DNA of 64,000 nt, taken from an archaeon (GTDB taxonomy: Archaea > Nanobdellota > Nanobdellia > Woesearchaeales > GW2011-AR9). The stretch lies in contig JABHSG010000003.1 of the NCBI GenBank assembly GCA_018697095.1, positions 150,895 through 214,894 of the forward strand, in the 5' to 3' direction. Made by a program: the position numbers and the translations under genes. The notes beneath the pieces are model-generated. The model saw only the letters and a list, made by a program, of their open reading frames with translations, did no database searches and was not told the DNA's origin. This document shows, piece by piece, positions 29,982 to 59,705 of the stretch (positions are counted from its first letter, which is position 1; each line of letters opens with the position of its first letter).

Positions 29982-32435
29982 ATGAATAAATTAACAAAAA
30001 TTTTCGGAATTTTAATGCTGGCCCTACTTATGGTTGGCACTTTAGCAGGCTCAGCTTTTGCTGACGCACCAACATTTCCAGTAGAAGCGATAGGTACTGG
30101 GGCAATGGTAGGAGATACCATTCCAGTTATGATCATCGCAGAAGATACTGATGGTGACGCACTAACATTCTCATTAGCGGTAAGCTGTACAGATTGTGTG
30201 GGAACATCCACTCTTGAAGAACAAGAATTTAGTACTCCAGTAGAAATTATGACTAATTCTTATCTAGTTGAATTAGAATGGATTCCAACAGAAGACGATG
30301 CTGGAGCAATTGGTCCGGCAAGTCATGAAGTAACAGTAGAAGTAACTGATGGAACTTCAACAATATCTCAAAGTTTTACAATTACAGTAGGTTCATACGG
30401 ACCTTCTCACGAAGAGATTCAAGAAGAAATGTTTGATCAAATGATTTCTGATCTTGAAGATCAAGCAGATGAACTTCTAAGTGAATTAGAAGCAGCTACA
30501 ACTGAAGAAGCTGAACTTATCGAAGAACAACTTGAAAGTATCGAAGAAAGGCTTGATCAACTTTTAGAACACATTGAAGATATGGCAGCAGATGGAGCAA
30601 TCACTGAAGCTGGAGCGGAAACTCTTGAAGCTTCTGCACAAGCAGTAGTTGATGAAATTGAAGCTGCAGTTGAAGGATCAGATGATGGTTCTGAAGATCC
30701 AGAAGATCCTATCCCTGATTCTGATGGTGATGGGATTGCAGATGATGTTGATAACTGCCCAGCAACTATCAATCCAGATCAATTAGATACTGACGCTGAT
30801 GGTCTAGGTGACGAATGTGACCCAGTAGACGATAGTACAGGTTCAGCACCATCCTTAACTGGAGAAGAAGCCTACGATATTACTCTTGGTGAAACCGCTA
30901 ATCTTTACGTTGAATTTGCAGACGCAGATGAAGATGGTCTTCTTTCAGTTTCTATCGCTTATGTAGATGGTACTGGATCTGAAGTTTTAGTTGACTTATC
31001 TGAGATCACTTTATTCGAAGTGGAACCAGAGTATGATTACTGGTCAATTGAATACGATTTCACTCCAAGCGCAGCTGGAACATACGTTTTTACAGTTGTA
31101 GCAACCGATGGAAGTGGAGCAGATTCAGATGATTTTACAACCACTGTAACTGTTACTGAAGAAACCGATCCAAGTGAAACTGATTCTGATGGTGACGGAG
31201 TAACTGACGACCTTGATGTTTGTGAAGGATCTGATGACACTGTTGACACTGACGCTGACGGAACACCTGATGGATGTGATGATTCAGATGCTGACGGAGT
31301 AACTGATGATTTAGACGTTTGTGAAGGCTTTGACGACACTGTTGACACTGATGCTGACGGCACACCTGATGGTTGTGACGACGACGACGATGGCGACGGA
31401 GTTTTAGACGCTGACGATGTTTGTGAAGGATCTGACGACACAGTTGATACTGATGGCGATGGAACTCCAGACTGTTTAGACGAAGATACAACTTACTCTC
31501 CAGTTTTTGACGCTGTAGCAAGTCAAGAAGCAACATCAGGCGAAGAATTTACTCTAAGTTTTAATGTAACTGATGAAGATACAACTGACACAATTACTTT
31601 AGCAAACGCTAGTGTAACTTGTACAAGTACATGTACAACTTCAACTCTTGACTTAACCGAAGACGTTGATTTAACTTTTGACGGAACAACTTTTACAATT
31701 ACTTGGACACCAAGTGATAGCGATATCGGAACTCAAGAAGTTTCAATTGTTGCTAGTGATGATGCAGCTAACACAGATACTGTTACTTTTTCAATTACTG
31801 TAAACGAAAGTTGTGACGGCTCAAGTGACTATTGTGCATATGTAGCTGACATCGAAGAATTCGAAACAAACCTTGAAGACTTTGAAGCTGACTTTGAAGA
31901 TCTTGAAGAAGATTACGAAGATGCAATTGACGATGATGACGAAAGTGATCTTGAAGATGCAACTGAGGAACTCGAAGACATGCTTGACGACTTAGATGAT
32001 ATGCTTGATGAAATTGATGACTTAGAAGACGACATTGATGACTCAGAAGACGATGAAGATATCACTAGTGATGAAGAAGACGAATTAATTGATAGTCTTG
32101 ATGATTTACGTGATGATATTGAAGACTTAATTGACGACATCGAAGATCTTTTAGGAATTGAAAGTGAAGACAATAGCGCAAGCTCATGGTCAACAGCTAG
32201 TGTTTCATCTAGTAGTACATCTAGTAGTAATGATGATAGCGATGATGAAGACGATAGCGGTTTCACAGTTGATTTGACAACTCTTGGTTTAGATACAAGT
32301 AATGAAGATACAACTACTTATACTCAAGAAAACTCTTGGGAAGATATTAGGTATTTAGTATATCTTTTAGCTGGTATTGTAATTGCTCTTGCAGCTCTAG
32401 TTTTTCTAGTAGCTATAATGGCAACTAAGAACTAA
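29982..32435 (+). CDS. Membrane-anchored acidic surface protein with TSP3 repeats and coiled coil
   Basis: 817 residues. Signal peptide (about 1-27, ending SAFADA), a cadherin-like domain, an acidic helical stretch (about 145-230), one TSP3 motif near 245-275, a second beta domain, then three tandem TSP3-like units near 400-505 with repeated VTDDLDVCEG and DADGTPDG. After another beta domain comes a remarkably Asp/Glu-rich coiled-coil segment (about 618-735), a Ser-rich stretch and a C-terminal membrane helix. Probably a calcium-binding stalk on the cell surface. GGTGAT supports the start. Confidence 0.82.
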   Translation: MNKLTKIFGILMLALLMVGTLAGSAFADAPTFPVEAIGTGAMVGDTIPVMIIAEDTDGDALTFSLAVSCTDCVGTSTLEEQEFSTPVEIMTNSYLVELEWIPTEDDAGAIGPASHEVTVEVTDGTSTISQSFTITVGSYGPSHEEIQEEMFDQMISDLEDQADELLSELEAATTEEAELIEEQLESIEERLDQLLEHIEDMAADGAITEAGAETLEASAQAVVDEIEAAVEGSDDGSEDPEDPIPDSDGDGIADDVDNCPATINPDQLDTDADGLGDECDPVDDSTGSAPSLTGEEAYDITLGETANLYVEFADADEDGLLSVSIAYVDGTGSEVLVDLSEITLFEVEPEYDYWSIEYDFTPSAAGTYVFTVVATDGSGADSDDFTTTVTVTEETDPSETDSDGDGVTDDLDVCEGSDDTVDTDADGTPDGCDDSDADGVTDDLDVCEGFDDTVDTDADGTPDGCDDDDDGDGVLDADDVCEGSDDTVDTDGDGTPDCLDEDTTYSPVFDAVASQEATSGEEFTLSFNVTDEDTTDTITLANASVTCTSTCTTSTLDLTEDVDLTFDGTTFTITWTPSDSDIGTQEVSIVASDDAANTDTVTFSITVNESCDGSSDYCAYVADIEEFETNLEDFEADFEDLEEDYEDAIDDDDESDLEDATEELEDMLDDLDDMLDEIDDLEDDIDDSEDDEDITSDEEDELIDSLDDLRDDIEDLIDDIEDLLGIESEDNSASSWSTASVSSSSTSSSNDDSDDEDDSGFTVDLTTLGLDTSNEDTTTYTQENSWEDIRYLVYLLAGIVIALAALVFLVAIMATKN

Positions 32436-33443: not shown

Positions 33444-33605
33444 AATCTGCTTTTAGCAGGCTTAATATTTAAACTTTCCACCTAAATTTTGGTTTCTGCC
33501 ACTTTGAATACCTAAATTGGCCCACCATAAAGTTTTTATAAGCAAAAACAGAGACATCTAACATAAAAAACACATTAGGTAGTATATAATTCACAGGTGA
33601 GGGTC

Positions 33606-33866
33606 ATGGAAAAAGAAAAAAGTTATTCTAAGGATCTTTTAGGCAAAACAGTTGTCTCAAAGATGGGTAAAAAATTCGGTGAAGTAGGAGATTTAGTCTT
33701 TGAAGTAGGTTCAGGCGAACTAATTCATTTGGTTCTAAGAAATCCAACTAGCTACACTGATAGAATGGAACTAGAAAAAGATAAAGAGGGAGAACAATTA
33801 ATCCCTTTTAGCGCAGTTATTGCTAGCGGCGACTTTATTGTAGTTTCTGAAGAAGACATTATCTAA
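33606..33866 (+). CDS. PRC-barrel domain protein
   Basis: 86 residues from the ATG at 33606; GGTGA lies at 33596-33600, so the GTG three codons upstream is less likely. The sequence KDLLGKTVVSKMGKKFGEVGDLVF and the later LIPFSAVIASGDFIVV match the PRC-barrel pattern, a small beta-barrel found in photosynthetic reaction centre H subunits and in RNA-processing proteins such as RimM. Archaea often encode stand-alone copies. A TATA-like box TTTTTATAAG near 33533 would give a leader of about 40 bases. Confidence 0.8.
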   Translation: MEKEKSYSKDLLGKTVVSKMGKKFGEVGDLVFEVGSGELIHLVLRNPTSYTDRMELEKDKEGEQLIPFSAVIASGDFIVVSEEDII

Positions 33867-33924: not shown

Positions 33925-36900
33925 TTAAATCCTTTTCAAATAAATTGCTTGGTGGTCTTCAGGGCCAACTCCTATCCCCAAAACTCTTGCCTCAGTATAA
34001 AATTCAATTGCATTCAAAACTTTAGATACTTCAATTGGGATACTTTTAGTCAAATAATTCATTTCTTTTCCTTTCCAACCCTTAAATTTACGAATAATTG
34101 GCAAGCAATATTCTAATACAAAACTTTCTGGCAATGCATCACCACAATTAATTATGTCTCCAGTCCTATATTTTTTTCCTCCAGAAACTAAATAACTCCC
34201 TTTCTCGTCTTCACAAACTTCCCCTTCACTTTCTTTTGGAAGTGAAACAACATAGGCAATTATTAGTCCAACATCATTATAATCTGATCCTCTATCAAAT
34301 GCAGAGATAAACAAATTTTTTCCCTGAGCTAAAGTTTGTTGGTAAGCTGAAACACAATCAAACCAACCACAAATTCTTGGTTTCCCAGTAGTTGCCCCTC
34401 TTTCTTTAAGGTTTCTTGAACTACAAATGGCCATTGCTTCTCCAATTTCATAACTTTTACCAAATCCAGTAAGTGAAGAATTAGGTTCTTGTTTTTCATC
34501 AAAACCAACAACTCCTTTGTCATGATACATCCCAGGTTCTAAAATTCCTGAATCATTTATTAATCCAAAATATCTTTTGTGAATTTCATCAAAATTATTG
34601 CATGCGTTACCTAATTCAAAAATACTCGTAATCCCTTGAGAAGAAAACCTAGTTTGGTCTGTAAAAGAGCTAGGTATATTCCCTCTCCCAACTCTTGTGC
34701 TCCCAGGATATTTGTGCACAGAGAAGCTTACTACTTTATGGCTACTTCCATCAATTCCACTCGCAGATAGAACTCCCATTGAGGTTGTGTCTGCAGAGGT
34801 CGCGTTAGCAAATCCTTGAAAAACATTATTTGATAAAAAATAGCTCTGTGTTCCTTCTAATAGTAACCTTTTTCCTTTTTTAAGTTCTAAACTAATTTCA
34901 TAAGAAACGTCACAAGTTCTCGGGAAAAAAGAATTTAGAACAACCCGTTCTTTGTATAGATTATAAAGCCACAAAAGTGCTTTTTCAAGACCTTCTTCGT
35001 AGTGTACTTTTGCAAAATTAAGGACGTGCATCGGAACTACTCTTTGATTTTTTTTCCTAACTTCTAATAATTTTTCATATACATTTTTTAAATTAATTTC
35101 CTTCACAAATAAAAAACCTAAATAATTCTCTATATTTTTTCTTAATATAGAAACAACAAAATTAGGAGAATTATATATATGGTCTAAGCGCAAACTTCTT
35201 TTCATTTTCATGCAAGCATGGCTTGCCTTAATCCCAACGCCTGTAGAACTGTTATTTTTACTCCCAATCACATCCATTATTCTATGATATGGAGTGGTGA
35301 TGTGGAAATTTCCAAGAGACAAATTATCATAAGAAATCTCTTTAGAGGATAACGCAGATAATTCTTCATCAAATAAGCTAATTGGGTCACATACTACTTC
35401 TGGACCAACATAACACTTCTTTCCATGCACTATTGCAGAAGGAATTATGTGAAAAACAAATTTTTGCCCTTCAAGATATACAGTTCTTCCTGTGTTCGCA
35501 CCAGAATTGGCTCTTACAACAAAATCACAATATTTACTAAGCACATTCCCCCATTTCCCTTTCCCTTCATCTCCATAAAATGCTCCTCCAACAATAATTA
35601 TTTGAGAGTCAGAAATTTTCAAATGCACGGCTTCTTTTTCTTCTAAAACTTCATAATCAAAATTACTTATTTCAAAATTAAGAGCAGGAGGTGGCAAAAT
35701 ATCTTTTACTTGAGAATAGGCTTTTTGCTTTAAAGATAAATAACCCTCTTTGATTTTTAATTTTTCAACTTTTTTAAAAATTTCAGAAGAAAAATGATTG
35801 CTGGTTATTTTCTCATCAGAATCCCTTGAAGATTTTTTTGAAGAAAAATATCTCTCAACCAATTCACAACTAAGCCCAACATAATTTTCAGGATAAAGCA
35901 AAAGTAGTTCTTCTTTACATTTCAATGGTACATCTAAATTTAATATGAAACGACGCAAATTATCTAAATCAATAGTTTTTCCTTGACTATATGTTTTAAG
36001 CAATTCATATGCATCTGGCTTACCTTCTAAACGCAATTTAGTTTGAATAGCCTCACAAATAACTTCAGGGGCAGCTAAAACTTGTTTTTTACAAAATTCT
36101 CTATTAACACAAACTTTAGAAATCCCTTTTGAAACATTCTTATAAGCAGTTAAACTATGCCCAAAACTAACCCCTATATTCCTCAAAACAGTACTGTCTG
36201 AAAGGTCTCTTTGTAATCTAGAAACAGGCAACTTTTTCCCAAAAAAAGAAAACAAACTATTACTAATTCCTAAATTCCCCTCTGCATTTTCAAAGTTCAC
36301 AGGATTTACTTTGTGTGGCATTGTGGACGAACCAACACTTCCAGCTTCAATTGCCTGAATTAATATCCCATCACTAATATATCTCCACATATCTTGACAA
36401 AAATCAAGTAAGATACTATTAGCCCTAACAAAAACATCAAAAATTTCACATAAACTATCATGTGACTCAATTTGTGTATTATAAATCCCCATTTTCAGAT
36501 AATTTCCATTTGTTGAAGAAAGTTTTTCAACAAACTTTTGCGAAAAATTTATCCAATCTACATCCTCAAGTGAATGCTTCCATGCAGCAAATGTCCCAGT
36601 GGCACCACTGAACTTAACTTGCAAGGTGAAAGAGCAAAGTCTATTAATTTGTCTATTTAACCTTGAAGCAAATACAATCATTTCTTTGCCAAATGTGCTT
36701 GGGCTAGCAGTTTGTCCGTGCGTTCTAGACAGTAAAACTGTATCTTTTTCTAAAAGAGCCAATTCTTCAATATTTGCCAAGACAAGTTTTAATTCAGGAA
36801 CCAAAATTTCATTTACTGCTTCACCAACCATTAAAGCATAACTAATATTATTGATGTCTTCAGAAGTCAAAGCAAAATGAACTAAAGGGCAAATTCGCTC

Positions 36901-37254
36901 AAGGCCAATCTTTTTCAATTTCAAACGTAAATAATATTCAACTGCCTTTAAATCATGCCTGGTTGCAGAAATTTCTAAACCAACATGCCCTTTTTCTTCA
37001 ATCTCTTTAATCAAAGATATATCTTCGTCAGAAACATCACTCAGTTCACTTATTTTTTTAAAATCGCCACTTAATTCCCCAAATTTTTCTTTGATTCCCC
37101 CAATTTCTAACAAAGAAAGTAAATACTGGACTTCAATGTATACTCTTCTTCTAATCAATGCAGATTCACTAAAATAAGAAGTCAACTCTTTTGTAATTTT
37201 AAAATACCGCCCATCAAGGGGACTTAAAGCACTAAGTTCAAATCCAGCATCCAT
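33925..37254 (-). CDS. purB-purA: Fused adenylosuccinate lyase-adenylosuccinate synthetase (PurB-PurA)
   Basis: About 1109 residues in one uninterrupted frame. Residues 1 to about 470 are an E. coli-type PurB: SPLDGRY, TRHDLKAVEY, SRTHGQTASPSTFGKEM and the signature GSSTMPHKVNP near 310. After a linker of about 75 residues comes PurA: P-loop YGDEGKGK near 560, LLEGTQS, KPRICGWFD and a final GVGPEDHQ. Reactions: IMP plus Asp plus GTP to adenylosuccinate (PurA), then AMP plus fumarate (PurB). The PurA NAGHT motif reads NTGRT, so the catalytic His is Arg. Start is the ATG at 37254, 29 bases from a TATA-like CTTTAAAG. Confidence 0.92.
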   Translation of the reverse strand: MDAGFELSALSPLDGRYFKITKELTSYFSESALIRRRVYIEVQYLLSLLEIGGIKEKFGELSGDFKKISELSDVSDEDISLIKEIEEKGHVGLEISATRHDLKAVEYYLRLKLKKIGLERICPLVHFALTSEDINNISYALMVGEAVNEILVPELKLVLANIEELALLEKDTVLLSRTHGQTASPSTFGKEMIVFASRLNRQINRLCSFTLQVKFSGATGTFAAWKHSLEDVDWINFSQKFVEKLSSTNGNYLKMGIYNTQIESHDSLCEIFDVFVRANSILLDFCQDMWRYISDGILIQAIEAGSVGSSTMPHKVNPVNFENAEGNLGISNSLFSFFGKKLPVSRLQRDLSDSTVLRNIGVSFGHSLTAYKNVSKGISKVCVNREFCKKQVLAAPEVICEAIQTKLRLEGKPDAYELLKTYSQGKTIDLDNLRRFILNLDVPLKCKEELLLLYPENYVGLSCELVERYFSSKKSSRDSDEKITSNHFSSEIFKKVEKLKIKEGYLSLKQKAYSQVKDILPPPALNFEISNFDYEVLEEKEAVHLKISDSQIIIVGGAFYGDEGKGKWGNVLSKYCDFVVRANSGANTGRTVYLEGQKFVFHIIPSAIVHGKKCYVGPEVVCDPISLFDEELSALSSKEISYDNLSLGNFHITTPYHRIMDVIGSKNNSSTGVGIKASHACMKMKRSLRLDHIYNSPNFVVSILRKNIENYLGFLFVKEINLKNVYEKLLEVRKKNQRVVPMHVLNFAKVHYEEGLEKALLWLYNLYKERVVLNSFFPRTCDVSYEISLELKKGKRLLLEGTQSYFLSNNVFQGFANATSADTTSMGVLSASGIDGSSHKVVSFSVHKYPGSTRVGRGNIPSSFTDQTRFSSQGITSIFELGNACNNFDEIHKRYFGLINDSGILEPGMYHDKGVVGFDEKQEPNSSLTGFGKSYEIGEAMAICSSRNLKERGATTGKPRICGWFDCVSAYQQTLAQGKNLFISAFDRGSDYNDVGLIIAYVVSLPKESEGEVCEDEKGSYLVSGGKKYRTGDIINCGDALPESFVLEYCLPIIRKFKGWKGKEMNYLTKSIPIEVSKVLNAIEFYTEARVLGIGVGPEDHQAIYLKRI

Positions 37255-37408: not shown

Positions 37409-37912
37409 TTAATCAATTTTAGGAATTGGTTCAGCTTCATCTACTCGTTCAAGTGAAAACTCTTCATCAACAGATTTCAGATACTCACGTACCCGGCCAA
37501 GAACACTTTTCAAAATAAATCCTTCAATTTTGTCACGGAAAAGCTCACCTAGGCCAGCATTTTCCATGATCCGATATAAGTTAGCATTACTTTCAATTAA
37601 ATGCATATCTTTCAATCTTTTTAACTGACGTCTAATATTAGAACTTGCAATCCCAAGCATAGGAAGACCCTTCTCTTTACGAATACTCATAACTGCAAAT
37701 TTGATTTCTTCAGAATGTAATTCTTCGCTGCGCTGTCGAGCACGCAAAAGAACATACAAAATATCGACCATCACATCCCGAGAATCTCCTGGCTGTAAAA
37801 GTCCAAGTGATAAACAAACGCGACGTACTAGTTCTCGCCCTGTTACCGCTGGCTTTTCATAACGCCTAAGCGTCAATTCAGCAAGCGGTGTATCTATGCT
37901 TATCTTTCCCAT
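37409..37912 (-). CDS. Winged-helix DNA-binding protein, archaeal type
   Basis: 167 residues. A conserved-looking N-terminus (TPLAELTLRRYEKP) is followed by a helical region (ELVRRVCLSLGLLQPGDSRDVMVDILYVLL), then a winged-helix-like segment in the middle (about 85-125, ASSNIRRQLKRLKDMHLIE then a short wing). It looks like a transcriptional regulator or nucleoid protein; no specific family is named. GGTGAGG precedes the ATG. The 272 bases up to gltX hold paired hairpins and A/T-rich promoter-like sequence. Confidence 0.65.
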   Translation of the reverse strand: MGKISIDTPLAELTLRRYEKPAVTGRELVRRVCLSLGLLQPGDSRDVMVDILYVLLRARQRSEELHSEEIKFAVMSIRKEKGLPMLGIASSNIRRQLKRLKDMHLIESNANLYRIMENAGLGELFRDKIEGFILKSVLGRVREYLKSVDEEFSLERVDEAEPIPKID

Positions 37913-38184: not shown

Positions 38185-39939
38185 TTAATTATGTAATTCC
38201 CAGAGCCAAACTTTGCCACTTTCAGAATCAATTCTATCAACTCTTGCAAAGTATTCTCTCTCTAATTGCACAATGTCTCCAACGCTGCAAGACAAAAGCC
38301 CAACTTCGCCACTTCCCTTAACTATTTTATGACCCATTCGCATAATTTCTAAGTCACAAACATTACTAGCTCCAGCAGGTAAATAATGCAAAATCTTGCC
38401 TCGGTTAGCAGCATCTCTATACTCATCATAACTTTCTGAATGAAACAAAAACCTGCCATTTTCATCAACAGTAAAATTGCAACAATCAATCAAGCGGTGT
38501 ACACGCGAAGTAGCTAGGGTCTTAAAATCCTTAGAAGCAAGTACTAATTTTGGACCAACAACAAAAGAGCGATTTCCTCGATCCACAAAATCAGGATGCA
38601 TAGCAAGCGAAACATCATGGGACGACATCCCCTCAACATTAATTTCAACAGGATCTTCTACAAAGAAATACCTATTAGCCAGCGGTTCTACAATCTCTTT
38701 GTTAAAAGAATTAACCATTTTCCAAAACTCATCCCACGAGACAGTTTTATCATTAGGGCTCAAACCAATAGCAGCAGCGAATTTAGAAAAAGCGCCAACT
38801 TGGTATCCACGACGACGTAAAGTACGCAAAGTTGCAAGACGTATATCATCCCATCCAGTATATTCTCCTTGCTCAATTGCAATGCGAGTTTTAGAAGTTG
38901 ATAACGCAAAACCTTCGAAGTTAATTCGTCCCCAATGTTGATACAAAGGAACACGTAAACCTAACTTTTCAAGTATCAAAGTTTCCTTGCGGCCATTATC
39001 TAAATGGTCTTTCCCATTCAAAACATGTGTAATACCAAGTAATGTGTCGTCAATTGCAACACTCATAATCATCAGTGGCCAAACTCGCGTAGCTCCTGAA
39101 GCTTTTGGATGTGCATGATCATTAATTCTAAACAGTGAAAAATCTCGCATTGCTGGATTTTTGTGAGCAATATCTGTTTTTAATCGCACAACAACATCTC
39201 CTTCACTATATCCACCATCAACAACTGGAATAAACATTTTATCCCAACGTGTTTGCTGATCAACTATCTCTAAATCACGGCAACTACATGCTGCCTTTTT
39301 TGCTTTCATCTCTCGCCAATTATCAGAGTCACAATCACAAACATATGAGTCTCCTGAATCAATCAAATCACGACCATACTTATAGTAAGTTTCGAGTCTT
39401 TCACTTTGTACAACGCAGTTTACAACTTTCCCATTTGTTAGCCATTTAACATCATCAAGTATTAAGTCATATGCTGGACTGTAAATATTTGAAGGGTTAG
39501 TGTCTTCAATACGTAAAATAAATTCGCCGCCATACATCTGCGCGTACATAAAATTCAAAAGAGACCCGTAAGCATGCCCAATATGTAGTGGCCCACTTGG
39601 TGAAGGTGCAATTCTAACACAAAGTTTTCCTTTTTCTGCGCCACGCAGCGGCTTAAGTGGTCCTTTAACTTCTTCTTTTTTACTTGCGTTCAATTGCGCC
39701 TCAAAATCAGGAGCAACCTCTACTAAACGAGCTTTCAAATCATCTACGCTTTTTCCAGAAATCTCAGATTCTACAATCCCGCCCACAGCAGCAAGTACTA
39801 ATTTAGCATCTTTTCGTAATTCAGGCAAATGTTTTAGAACAAATCCCATAGAAGCTTTCGGATTAACCTTCCCGCTAAAAGAAATAGCATTATGTAATAC
39901 AAACGGTAATATTTTACTCTTTAATTCATTCTCAGCCAT
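38185..39939 (-). CDS. gltX: Glutamyl-tRNA synthetase, archaeal type
   Basis: 584 residues from the ATG at 39939, about 24 bases from a TATA-like TTTTTATATAG; an earlier ATG at 39945 is possible. Archaeal/eukaryotic GluRS layout with an extra N-terminal domain of about 100 residues. The HIGH motif reads PSGPLHIGHAYG near 115, and the KMSKS-equivalent is ALSTSKTR near 355. A Cys-rich patch (VCDCDS, ACSCRD) lies in the insert. The C-terminal beta-barrel anticodon-binding domain is typical of this branch. Known role: charging tRNA-Glu. Confidence 0.95.
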   Translation of the reverse strand: MAENELKSKILPFVLHNAISFSGKVNPKASMGFVLKHLPELRKDAKLVLAAVGGIVESEISGKSVDDLKARLVEVAPDFEAQLNASKKEEVKGPLKPLRGAEKGKLCVRIAPSPSGPLHIGHAYGSLLNFMYAQMYGGEFILRIEDTNPSNIYSPAYDLILDDVKWLTNGKVVNCVVQSERLETYYKYGRDLIDSGDSYVCDCDSDNWREMKAKKAACSCRDLEIVDQQTRWDKMFIPVVDGGYSEGDVVVRLKTDIAHKNPAMRDFSLFRINDHAHPKASGATRVWPLMIMSVAIDDTLLGITHVLNGKDHLDNGRKETLILEKLGLRVPLYQHWGRINFEGFALSTSKTRIAIEQGEYTGWDDIRLATLRTLRRRGYQVGAFSKFAAAIGLSPNDKTVSWDEFWKMVNSFNKEIVEPLANRYFFVEDPVEINVEGMSSHDVSLAMHPDFVDRGNRSFVVGPKLVLASKDFKTLATSRVHRLIDCCNFTVDENGRFLFHSESYDEYRDAANRGKILHYLPAGASNVCDLEIMRMGHKIVKGSGEVGLLSCSVGDIVQLEREYFARVDRIDSESGKVWLWELHN

Positions 39940-39969
39940 AATCATTCATAAAGAGAACTATATAAAAAG

Positions 39970-57763: not shown

Positions 57764-58267
57764 TCATCTGCTTGCTTTCTGTTCCTGTAAAACTTTATAC
57801 AATCCAAGTGCTTCTGTTTTTAACATTTCAAGAAGATTCACTTCCCTATCTTTAGTTATATTCTGATTCCAAAGACCTTCATCAAATTTGCTAGAATCAA
57901 TTCTTTTACTCCTAGGATGACTCAAATACCCAATACTTACTCCGGGAACTTTTTCTCGTAAACGACCCATCTCTGTATAAAGGTCAAGTGTTTCATGGCC
58001 ACCACCTCTTCTTGCAACTTGAAATCTTGGCAAATCTTCGGCAGCTAAACCACATAAATCAAATACTACTAATTCTGGGCTTAAAAATGAGAGATCTCCT
58101 CTAGTAGTAACCATTATTTGTGTGTTATTAAAAATTCGAACTTCTTCTCTTGCCCCTCCTTGAGTTCCAAGGCACACTCCTTCTGAAAAATATCTTCCAA
58201 AAAGGGCAACATTATAACTAAATCCCATAGTTTTATTTTCAAATTGTCTCTTTAAAAACTTAATCAC
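57764..58267 (-). CDS. Small alpha/beta protein downstream of guaB
   Basis: 167 residues, or 154 if the ATG at 58228 is used; the longer start overlaps guaB by 8 bases. A central FLSPELVVFDLCGLAAEDLP suggests a Rossmann-like or receiver-like core. The rest is helical with a basic end. No family recognised. The overlap with guaB points to co-transcription with it. Confidence 0.5.
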   Translation of the reverse strand: MIKFLKRQFENKTMGFSYNVALFGRYFSEGVCLGTQGGAREEVRIFNNTQIMVTTRGDLSFLSPELVVFDLCGLAAEDLPRFQVARRGGGHETLDLYTEMGRLREKVPGVSIGYLSHPRSKRIDSSKFDEGLWNQNITKDREVNLLEMLKTEALGLYKVLQEQKASR

Positions 58268-59705
58268 TCATTTTATCGCCGCGACTTCCACTCTCATGAA
58301 ACCCAGCAGCAGTGATTCGAATAAATTCAGCGTTCTCTTGCATGCCTTTAATATCGCGTGCACCACAATAACTAATCCCTGAACGCAGTCCTTTTACTAG
58401 TCCTTCAACAACGCCTTCAGCTGACCCACGATAATCTTTGAGTATTGGAACTCCTTCAACATGCACATTGAATTGTTTACGAATACGTTTGCCAGCAACT
58501 TTTTCTTTAGTCTCATGATTGTTCGCATAAGAAGCAGAGCCCATGTATCGTTTATACCTACGGCCATTTTTACTAATAATTGGTCCAGGTGATTCATCGC
58601 ACGGTGCAAAATGTGATCCTGTCATAATGTTAGATGCACCTGCAGCAAGTGCCTTAGACACATCGCCTGGATAAGTTATTCCCCCGTCAGCACAAACTGG
58701 AATCCCATGTATACGAGCAACTCTACATACATCCCAAACTGCAGTAAGTTGTGGGACGCCAGCTCCTGCCATGATTCGAGTAGTACATACTGGTGAAGGT
58801 CCAACTCCAACTTTGATTCCATCAACTCCTGCCTCAATAAGCGCAGTAGCTGCTTCTCCAGTTGCTACATTCCCTGCAATTAAATCAACATCAGGCCACT
58901 TTGCTTTCAATTCAGAAATACGTGAAATTGCATAATCAGAATGGCAGTGCGCAATATCTAAACAAAGTACATCAACTCCAGCGTCAATTAGTAGTTCTGC
59001 TCTTTTCATTGCATCTTTAACGCCAACAGCTGCGCAAACAACAAGGCGTCCTTTAGAATCACGATTCGCGTTTGGATAACGCTCTAGTTTCACAATATCT
59101 TTACTTGTAATAAGTCCAGCAAGTCGACCAGAAGGATCTAGCAAAGGCAATTTTTCAATTCTATGGATATGTAAAAGTTCTTTAGCTTCAAGTAAACTAA
59201 TTCCTGGTTCACCAACAACTAATTTGTCTCGTGGTGTCATAACTGATAAGACTAATTTGGAATGATCTTCTTCAAATTGATAATCCTTGTGTGTGAAAAT
59301 CCCAACAACTTCTCCAGTCATGAATCCATCATTTGTTACAACTAAACTAGTGATTCCTTTATCTTCAAGTAGTTCAACTGCGCCAGCAACAGTTGCGTTA
59401 GGTGCAACGCAAATTGGTTTTTCAATCACAAAAGAAGTTGAACGTTTAACTCGCCTAACTTCAGCTGCCTGAAATTGCGCAGTACAAAACTGGTGGATAA
59501 TTCCAATTGCCCCTAATCTAGCAAGTGCAATAGACATTTTAGATTCACATACAGTTGCCATGTTGGCCGCAACTATTGGCAAATTTAATTTAACATTTCG
59601 AGTGAAATGTGTTCGCACATCAGCTTCTGAGCGAGACTTTAGATATGTTTTTTTCGGCACCAGCAAAACATCAGAATATGTCAGTCCTAAACGTAAGTTA
59701 TCCAT
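58260..59705 (-). CDS. guaB: IMP dehydrogenase
   Basis: 481 residues, full length. Two CBS domains (about residues 90-210) are inserted in the TIM barrel. The catalytic loop reads GVGPSPVCTTRIMAGAGVPQ with the active Cys; the flap region has KRYMGSASYANN, and IPVCADGGITYPGD and AAGASNIMTGS are also conserved. Reaction: NAD-dependent oxidation of IMP to XMP, first step to GMP. The Gly-Ser usually before the Cys is Ser-Pro-Val here, a small variation. With PurB-PurA at 34-37 kb it covers both branches from IMP. Confidence 0.94.
   Translation of the reverse strand: MDNLRLGLTYSDVLLVPKKTYLKSRSEADVRTHFTRNVKLNLPIVAANMATVCESKMSIALARLGAIGIIHQFCTAQFQAAEVRRVKRSTSFVIEKPICVAPNATVAGAVELLEDKGITSLVVTNDGFMTGEVVGIFTHKDYQFEEDHSKLVLSVMTPRDKLVVGEPGISLLEAKELLHIHRIEKLPLLDPSGRLAGLITSKDIVKLERYPNANRDSKGRLVVCAAVGVKDAMKRAELLIDAGVDVLCLDIAHCHSDYAISRISELKAKWPDVDLIAGNVATGEAATALIEAGVDGIKVGVGPSPVCTTRIMAGAGVPQLTAVWDVCRVARIHGIPVCADGGITYPGDVSKALAAGASNIMTGSHFAPCDESPGPIISKNGRRYKRYMGSASYANNHETKEKVAGKRIRKQFNVHVEGVPILKDYRGSAEGVVEGLVKGLRSGISYCGARDIKGMQENAEFIRITAAGFHESGSRGDKMSD

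Follow-up and report, generated by a model that had tools for sequence, protein, structure and literature searches.

The locus analyzed here raises two questions: whether PurB and PurA, which catalyze consecutive steps between IMP and AMP, have been joined into one polypeptide in an archaeon, and what a PurA that lacks its catalytic histidine would do. PurA (adenylosuccinate synthetase) is among the best-studied enzymes of purine metabolism. In bacterial PurA His41 is regarded as essential and catalytic, a fixed part of the mechanism that normally assists in moving a phosphoryl group of the triphosphate onto O6 of IMP; our literature search found no open paper confirming that it is essential in E. 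coli PurA. The stretch of DNA that was analyzed (64,000 nucleotides, hereafter the window) derives from a member of the order Woesearchaeales with a genome of about 1.3 Mb.

The purB-purA gene (33925..37254, minus strand) starts with an ATG at 37254, immediately preceded by TTG, and forms a single frame of 1109 codons without an internal stop. The Pfam domains in the encoded protein, all above the curated cut-offs, follow in the order Lyase_1 plus ASL_C (residues 121-459) and Adenylsucc_synt (residues 554-1104). The first-pass annotation, which left the strand unstated, had read the locus as one frame of about 1109 codons encoding PurB and then PurA, and both frame and domains bear this out: the fusion is a real single-chain PurB-PurA. 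As the genus is represented by one genome among those compared, an assembly or sequencing error that merged two adjacent genes has to be considered, but we regard this as highly improbable, because the junction contains neither a stop nor a purA start codon, a 573-kb contig encloses the locus, synteny is maintained on both sides, and similar fusions are found in other genomes. No in-frame ATG is present between residues 460 and 580, so that no trace of a lost purA start remains and the junction is unlike that of two genes merged through a lost stop. The same holds for the linker (residues 478-503; 35746..35823, minus), which is predicted to be disordered (AF2 pLDDT < 50). Both halves of the gene are alike in composition (GC 0.326 and 0.332; GC3 0.21 and 0.21), and its GC3 resembles that of the neighboring genes.

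The surroundings of the gene indicate how the fusion arose. Ahead of it lie a 167-aa gene that matches nothing in Pfam or NCBIfam (37409..37912, minus) and gltX, encoding an archaeal-type glutamyl-tRNA synthetase (38185..39945, minus), and on the opposite side a PRC-barrel-like gene with a weak RimM match (33597..33866, plus). Two other genomes of this archaeal order, G196 and G200, share the series nucleotidyltransferase, gltX, the 167-aa gene and a stand-alone long purA, followed in G196 by the PRC-barrel gene. The window has the same arrangement, with purB inserted directly ahead of purA and fused to it; in G196 purB is located elsewhere in the genome, and G200 has no Lyase_1 protein. This synteny shows that purA stood apart before purB was added to it: purB came to sit before a pre-existing purA of the long type, with in-frame fusion following. 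The gene of about 160 residues that adjoins purA and has no Pfam or NCBIfam match recurs at 37409-37912 in the window, L136 2251-2898, L137 3871-4347 and L183 5423-5896. The window further encodes fibrillarin, TYW2, an XPG-type nuclease and a tRNA intron endonuclease, which together with the archaeal-type GltX speak for an archaeal source, and the genome size would suit a DPANN lineage. It also encodes an 817-aa protein (29982-32435) with repeated Asp-rich motifs (DSDGDGVTDDLDVC) that appear thrombospondin type 3-like by eye; its N terminus is signal-like and a hydrophobic segment is found at its C terminus, which makes it a likely surface protein.

The PurB module (residues 1-470; 35845..37254, minus) is of the E. 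coli type and scores 538 bits against NF006764, above the cut-off of 446. Alignment to 2pts places His179 (36718..36720, minus) at E. coli His171 and Ser309, in the motif SSTMPHKVNP (36328..36330, minus), at E. coli Ser295, so that both catalytic residues, the His and the Ser of SSxMPxKxNP, are intact in the fusion. The first-pass annotation had taken the bacterial type of this part as a hint of transfer. E. coli-type PurB is common across this archaeal order, which together with the uniform composition leaves no sign of a recent transfer from bacteria, and we reject that origin.

The PurA module (residues 499-1109; 33928..35760, minus) is long and bears an N-terminal extension, as do the stand-alone long PurAs described below. 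It matches PF00709 over the full length of the profile (1-416) with 183.6 bits (cut-off 27), yet falls below every NCBIfam purA cut-off, with 153.7 bits at best against the 402 of the purA equivalog. The AF2 model of this half has a pLDDT of 92.2, and Foldseek ranks adenylosuccinate synthetases as its closest structures (E 1e-29, target TM up to 0.86), which establishes the fold; PurZ structures match much more weakly (E 1e-10). The P-loop GDEGKGK (35554..35574, minus) is present, with Asp562 aligned to E. coli Asp13. The motif that reads NAGHT elsewhere is NTGRT (35482..35496, minus; context NSGANTGRT), with Thr588 where other PurAs have Ala and Arg590 aligned with His41. The Arg590 codon, AGA at 35485-35487, is two base changes away from either His codon. 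In GATTGKPR (34375..34398, minus) Lys958 takes the place of E. coli Arg303, and the guanine motif (N/T)KxD reads SAFDRG (34288..34305, minus), without the Lys and with Asp987 kept. The alignment thus upholds the earlier reading of NAGHT changed to NTGRT with the P-loop Asp retained; the module is, however, not an ordinary PurA with a single change, as had been implied, but a member of a divergent long subfamily in which R143K, R303K and loss of NKxD accompany the altered histidine.

This subfamily, which we name long PurA, emerged from a homologue search that covered relatives first and then 353 genomes of the order. Fifteen other genomes of the order encode stand-alone homologues, which are about 580-660 residues long, share 32-47% identity with residues 499-1109, include the extension of about 60-70 residues ahead of the P-loop and form a fully supported clade (100/100). 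Across 371 sampled genomes of the phylum the long PurA is confined to this order, and a scan of genome contigs returned canonical bacterial PurA only. The window's genome encodes no other PF00709 protein, and the same is true of 13 of the 15 other carriers, the exceptions being G245, with a second PurA, and G150, with a 56-residue fragment. Relative to E. coli PurA, the long PurAs carry Lys in place of Arg143 throughout, Lys at the Arg303 place in 15 of 16 (Asn in G150) and in no case the Lys of (N/T)KxD, whereas Asp13, Asn38, Gly40, Thr42 and Gln224 are kept. The two stand-alone PurAs closest to that of the window, from G196 (L136) and G200 (L137), have GDEAKGK as P-loop rather than GDEGKGK.

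At the level of sequence, these family-wide changes point to altered nucleotide handling, and the low profile scores combined with the loss of the guanine-motif Lys suggest that donor or substrate may differ. We therefore weighed whether the entire subfamily, the window's module included, differs in the nucleotide that it uses as donor, with ATP replacing GTP for instance, or in its acceptor, which might be of the (d)GMP type as in phage PurZ. The substitutions at (N/T)KxD, R303 and R143 fit this idea, as do the Lys at the R303 place of phage VC8 PurZ (PMC8342488) and the preference of PurZ0 for ATP (PMC12884076). In phage PurZ, however, Asp13 is replaced by Ser or Gly (PMC12884076), while Asp562 retains this position in the window's protein, and the structural comparison favors PurA over PurZ by a wide margin in E-value. 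Phage origin or identity with PurZ was also rejected on the basis of viral and phage searches, which gave weak partial matches only (at most 48% over short stretches). The gene neighborhoods argue in the same direction: guaB, encoding IMP dehydrogenase, adjoins the long purA in nine loci, guaA or purH genes come next in some (purH beside guaB-purA in G046 and G298), and purB/purC-type genes are found in G044, which locates the family where the routes from IMP diverge, in line with an adenylosuccinate synthetase. Taken together, we consider a changed donor or acceptor unlikely; a changed donor would be compatible with conversion of IMP to AMP, the reading we prefer, whereas a changed acceptor would not.

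In contrast to these family-wide substitutions, the change of the catalytic histidine is restricted to two members. Among the PurAs compared, the His41 place is occupied by His in 84 and by Arg in 2. The nearest relative of the window's PurA, the stand-alone protein of G196 (46-47% identical), also has NTGRT, and the two form a supported clade (100/98); their Arg codons differ, CGA in G196 and AGA in the window. A DNA pattern that combines the P-loop with N-x-G-R-T matched in these two genomes only, among 353 genomes of the order and 371 of the phylum, and the reversed control pattern gave no match in either survey. As the G196 protein is not fused, the change is independent of the fusion. Apart from insertions, just two sites that are invariant in the other 14 long PurAs changed alike in both proteins, A588T and H590R. 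At the sites where these two agree against the other long PurAs neither has gained a histidine, and takeover of the catalytic place by another His was accordingly rejected; the residue in the His41 place is Arg590.

Loss of a residue regarded as catalytic and the low profile scores could also mean that the PurA half is dead or much weakened and has a scaffolding or regulatory role towards PurB instead. We hold this to be quite unlikely, since it is the only PurA of the genome, the Arg is conserved in two genera through different codons, and decay or error would scatter changes rather than confine those in common to A588 and H590. This pattern suggests a specific functional switch, and the His-to-Arg change is probably working chemistry and not damage. 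The broader proposal, that the PurAs of at least two archaeal genera form a clade that works without the catalytic His and uses Arg instead, in an arginine-finger-like phosphoryl transfer, and that one of these genera fused the enzyme to PurB, appears to us evenly balanced between being right and wrong.

For the window's protein itself, we consider it likely that it is a bifunctional IMP-to-AMP enzyme consisting of two flexibly tethered modules, with Arg in the His41 place. The C-terminal PurA module would convert IMP, aspartate and a nucleoside triphosphate to adenylosuccinate, from which the N-terminal PurB module would release AMP and fumarate. Asp562 would still activate IMP, and the likeliest role of Arg590 would be that of a positively charged, arginine-finger-like stabilizer of the transferred phosphoryl group. 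Since PurB forms tetramers and PurA dimers in other systems, the separately folded domains on their floppy tether would probably assemble into a mixed oligomer.

It is tempting to ascribe the fusion to channeling of adenylosuccinate between the active sites, a possibility that the first-pass annotation raised: one step follows directly on the other, and the order has seen such fusions arise repeatedly. The AF2 model of the whole protein (pTM 0.57) offers a different picture, with a disordered linker (pLDDT below 50) and two modules without confident packing; moreover, PurA is first in reaction order but second in the chain, and fusion within an operon suffices as an explanation without kinetic benefit. 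We judge channeling improbable as the reason for the fusion, and any kinetic benefit would be hypothetical.

The metabolic setting suggests another reason. The search for PurC found none in any of the four fusion genomes, the window's included, and none in G200 or G046; the unfused G196 encodes it, and G044 gives a weak match. Without PurC, and hence without SAICAR, adenylosuccinate would be the only substrate of PurB, leaving less reason to keep the enzymes apart, and this may explain why the fusion is tolerated. The link between loss of PurC and fusion is only suggestive, since the unfused G200 and G046 also lack PurC and the comparison is small. The window's genome encodes guaB for the other branch from IMP (58260..59705, minus). 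As to the source of IMP in this genome, we found no salvage phosphoribosyltransferase and no PurC, and its single phosphoribosyltransferase-family match (L273 1414-2328) resembles PRPP synthetase. The partnership of PurA and PurB is not universal among carriers of the long PurA: G200, G327, G304 and G133 (92-98% complete) have no Lyase_1 protein, and adenylosuccinate would be formed there without a recognizable lyase.

To the first-pass annotation no description of a PurB-PurA fusion was known, and we likewise found none in the open literature searched; the fusion is nevertheless not unique. A search for chains with both domains identified PurB-PurA-HAD in one frame in G019 (L135 679-4395, 1239 codons) and G123 (L134 934-4602, 1223 codons), and a tentative PurB-PurA of 880 codons in G310, where the PurB start is in another frame. 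The PurA parts of these three are canonical, with NAGHT. In G027, G190, G191, G294 and G016, purB and purA(-HAD) are adjoining separate genes; of these genomes, G027 and G294 also have the HAD part after PurA. A common origin of all four fusions is rejected, as they form no clade on the PurB tree (p-AU 0.00025) or the PurA tree (p-AU 1e-6), and the window's fusion thus arose independently of the others. A single PurB clade of G019, G123 and G310 is rejected as well (p 0.003); these three may reflect an ancestral fusion with later splits. The frames of G213 and G214, fusion-like by length, were set aside, as they contain PurB with another N-terminal part. This part, in frame before PurB in G214 (L181 2283-4127) and G213 (L182 2101-3792), resembles a winged helix-turn-helix (IREIAERLKISPAKVHQTIQIF), and these proteins are perhaps DNA-binding PurBs.

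A natural and conserved His-to-Arg PurA that is the sole copy in its organism would make the role of this residue directly testable, and the stand-alone Arg enzyme of G196, the stand-alone His enzyme of G200 and the fused Arg enzyme of the window provide a comparison series. Repeated PurB-PurA fusion within one archaeal order, in genomes that yielded no PurC, likewise offers a natural setting in which to test why enzymes of consecutive steps become fused.

In comparison with known systems, the PurB module agrees with E. coli-type PurB (NF006764; 3bhg, 2ptq-2pts) in full-length homology, the His171/Ser295 equivalents and the ASL_C domain, and the window's protein differs in bearing the additional C-terminal PurA module. 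With PurA (PF00709; E. coli 1ade/1cg1) that module has in common the fold, the P-loop with Asp13, Asn38, Gly40, Thr42, Gln224, RVG and GATT..PR. In contrast to E. coli PurA, it carries Arg for His41 and Lys for both Arg143 and Arg303, lacks the NKxD Lys, and measures about 610 residues against 430, including an N-terminal extension of about 60 residues. Members of the long PurA subfamily (G196, G200, G044 and others) match it over the full length, extension included, at 32-47% identity and with the family-wide substitutions in common, but they are stand-alone proteins and keep the His in all but G196. PurZ, PurZ0 and DgsS of Z-DNA phages have the same fold and some of the same substitutions at the Arg303 place, and differ in the Ser for Asp13 (PMC12884076) and in a much weaker structural match. 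Finally, the PurB-PurA-HAD proteins of G019 and G123 and the PurB-PurA of G310 unite the same two enzymes in the same order and in one frame, yet they differ from the window's protein in their canonical NAGHT PurA, in the terminal HAD hydrolase of two of them and in their separate origin.
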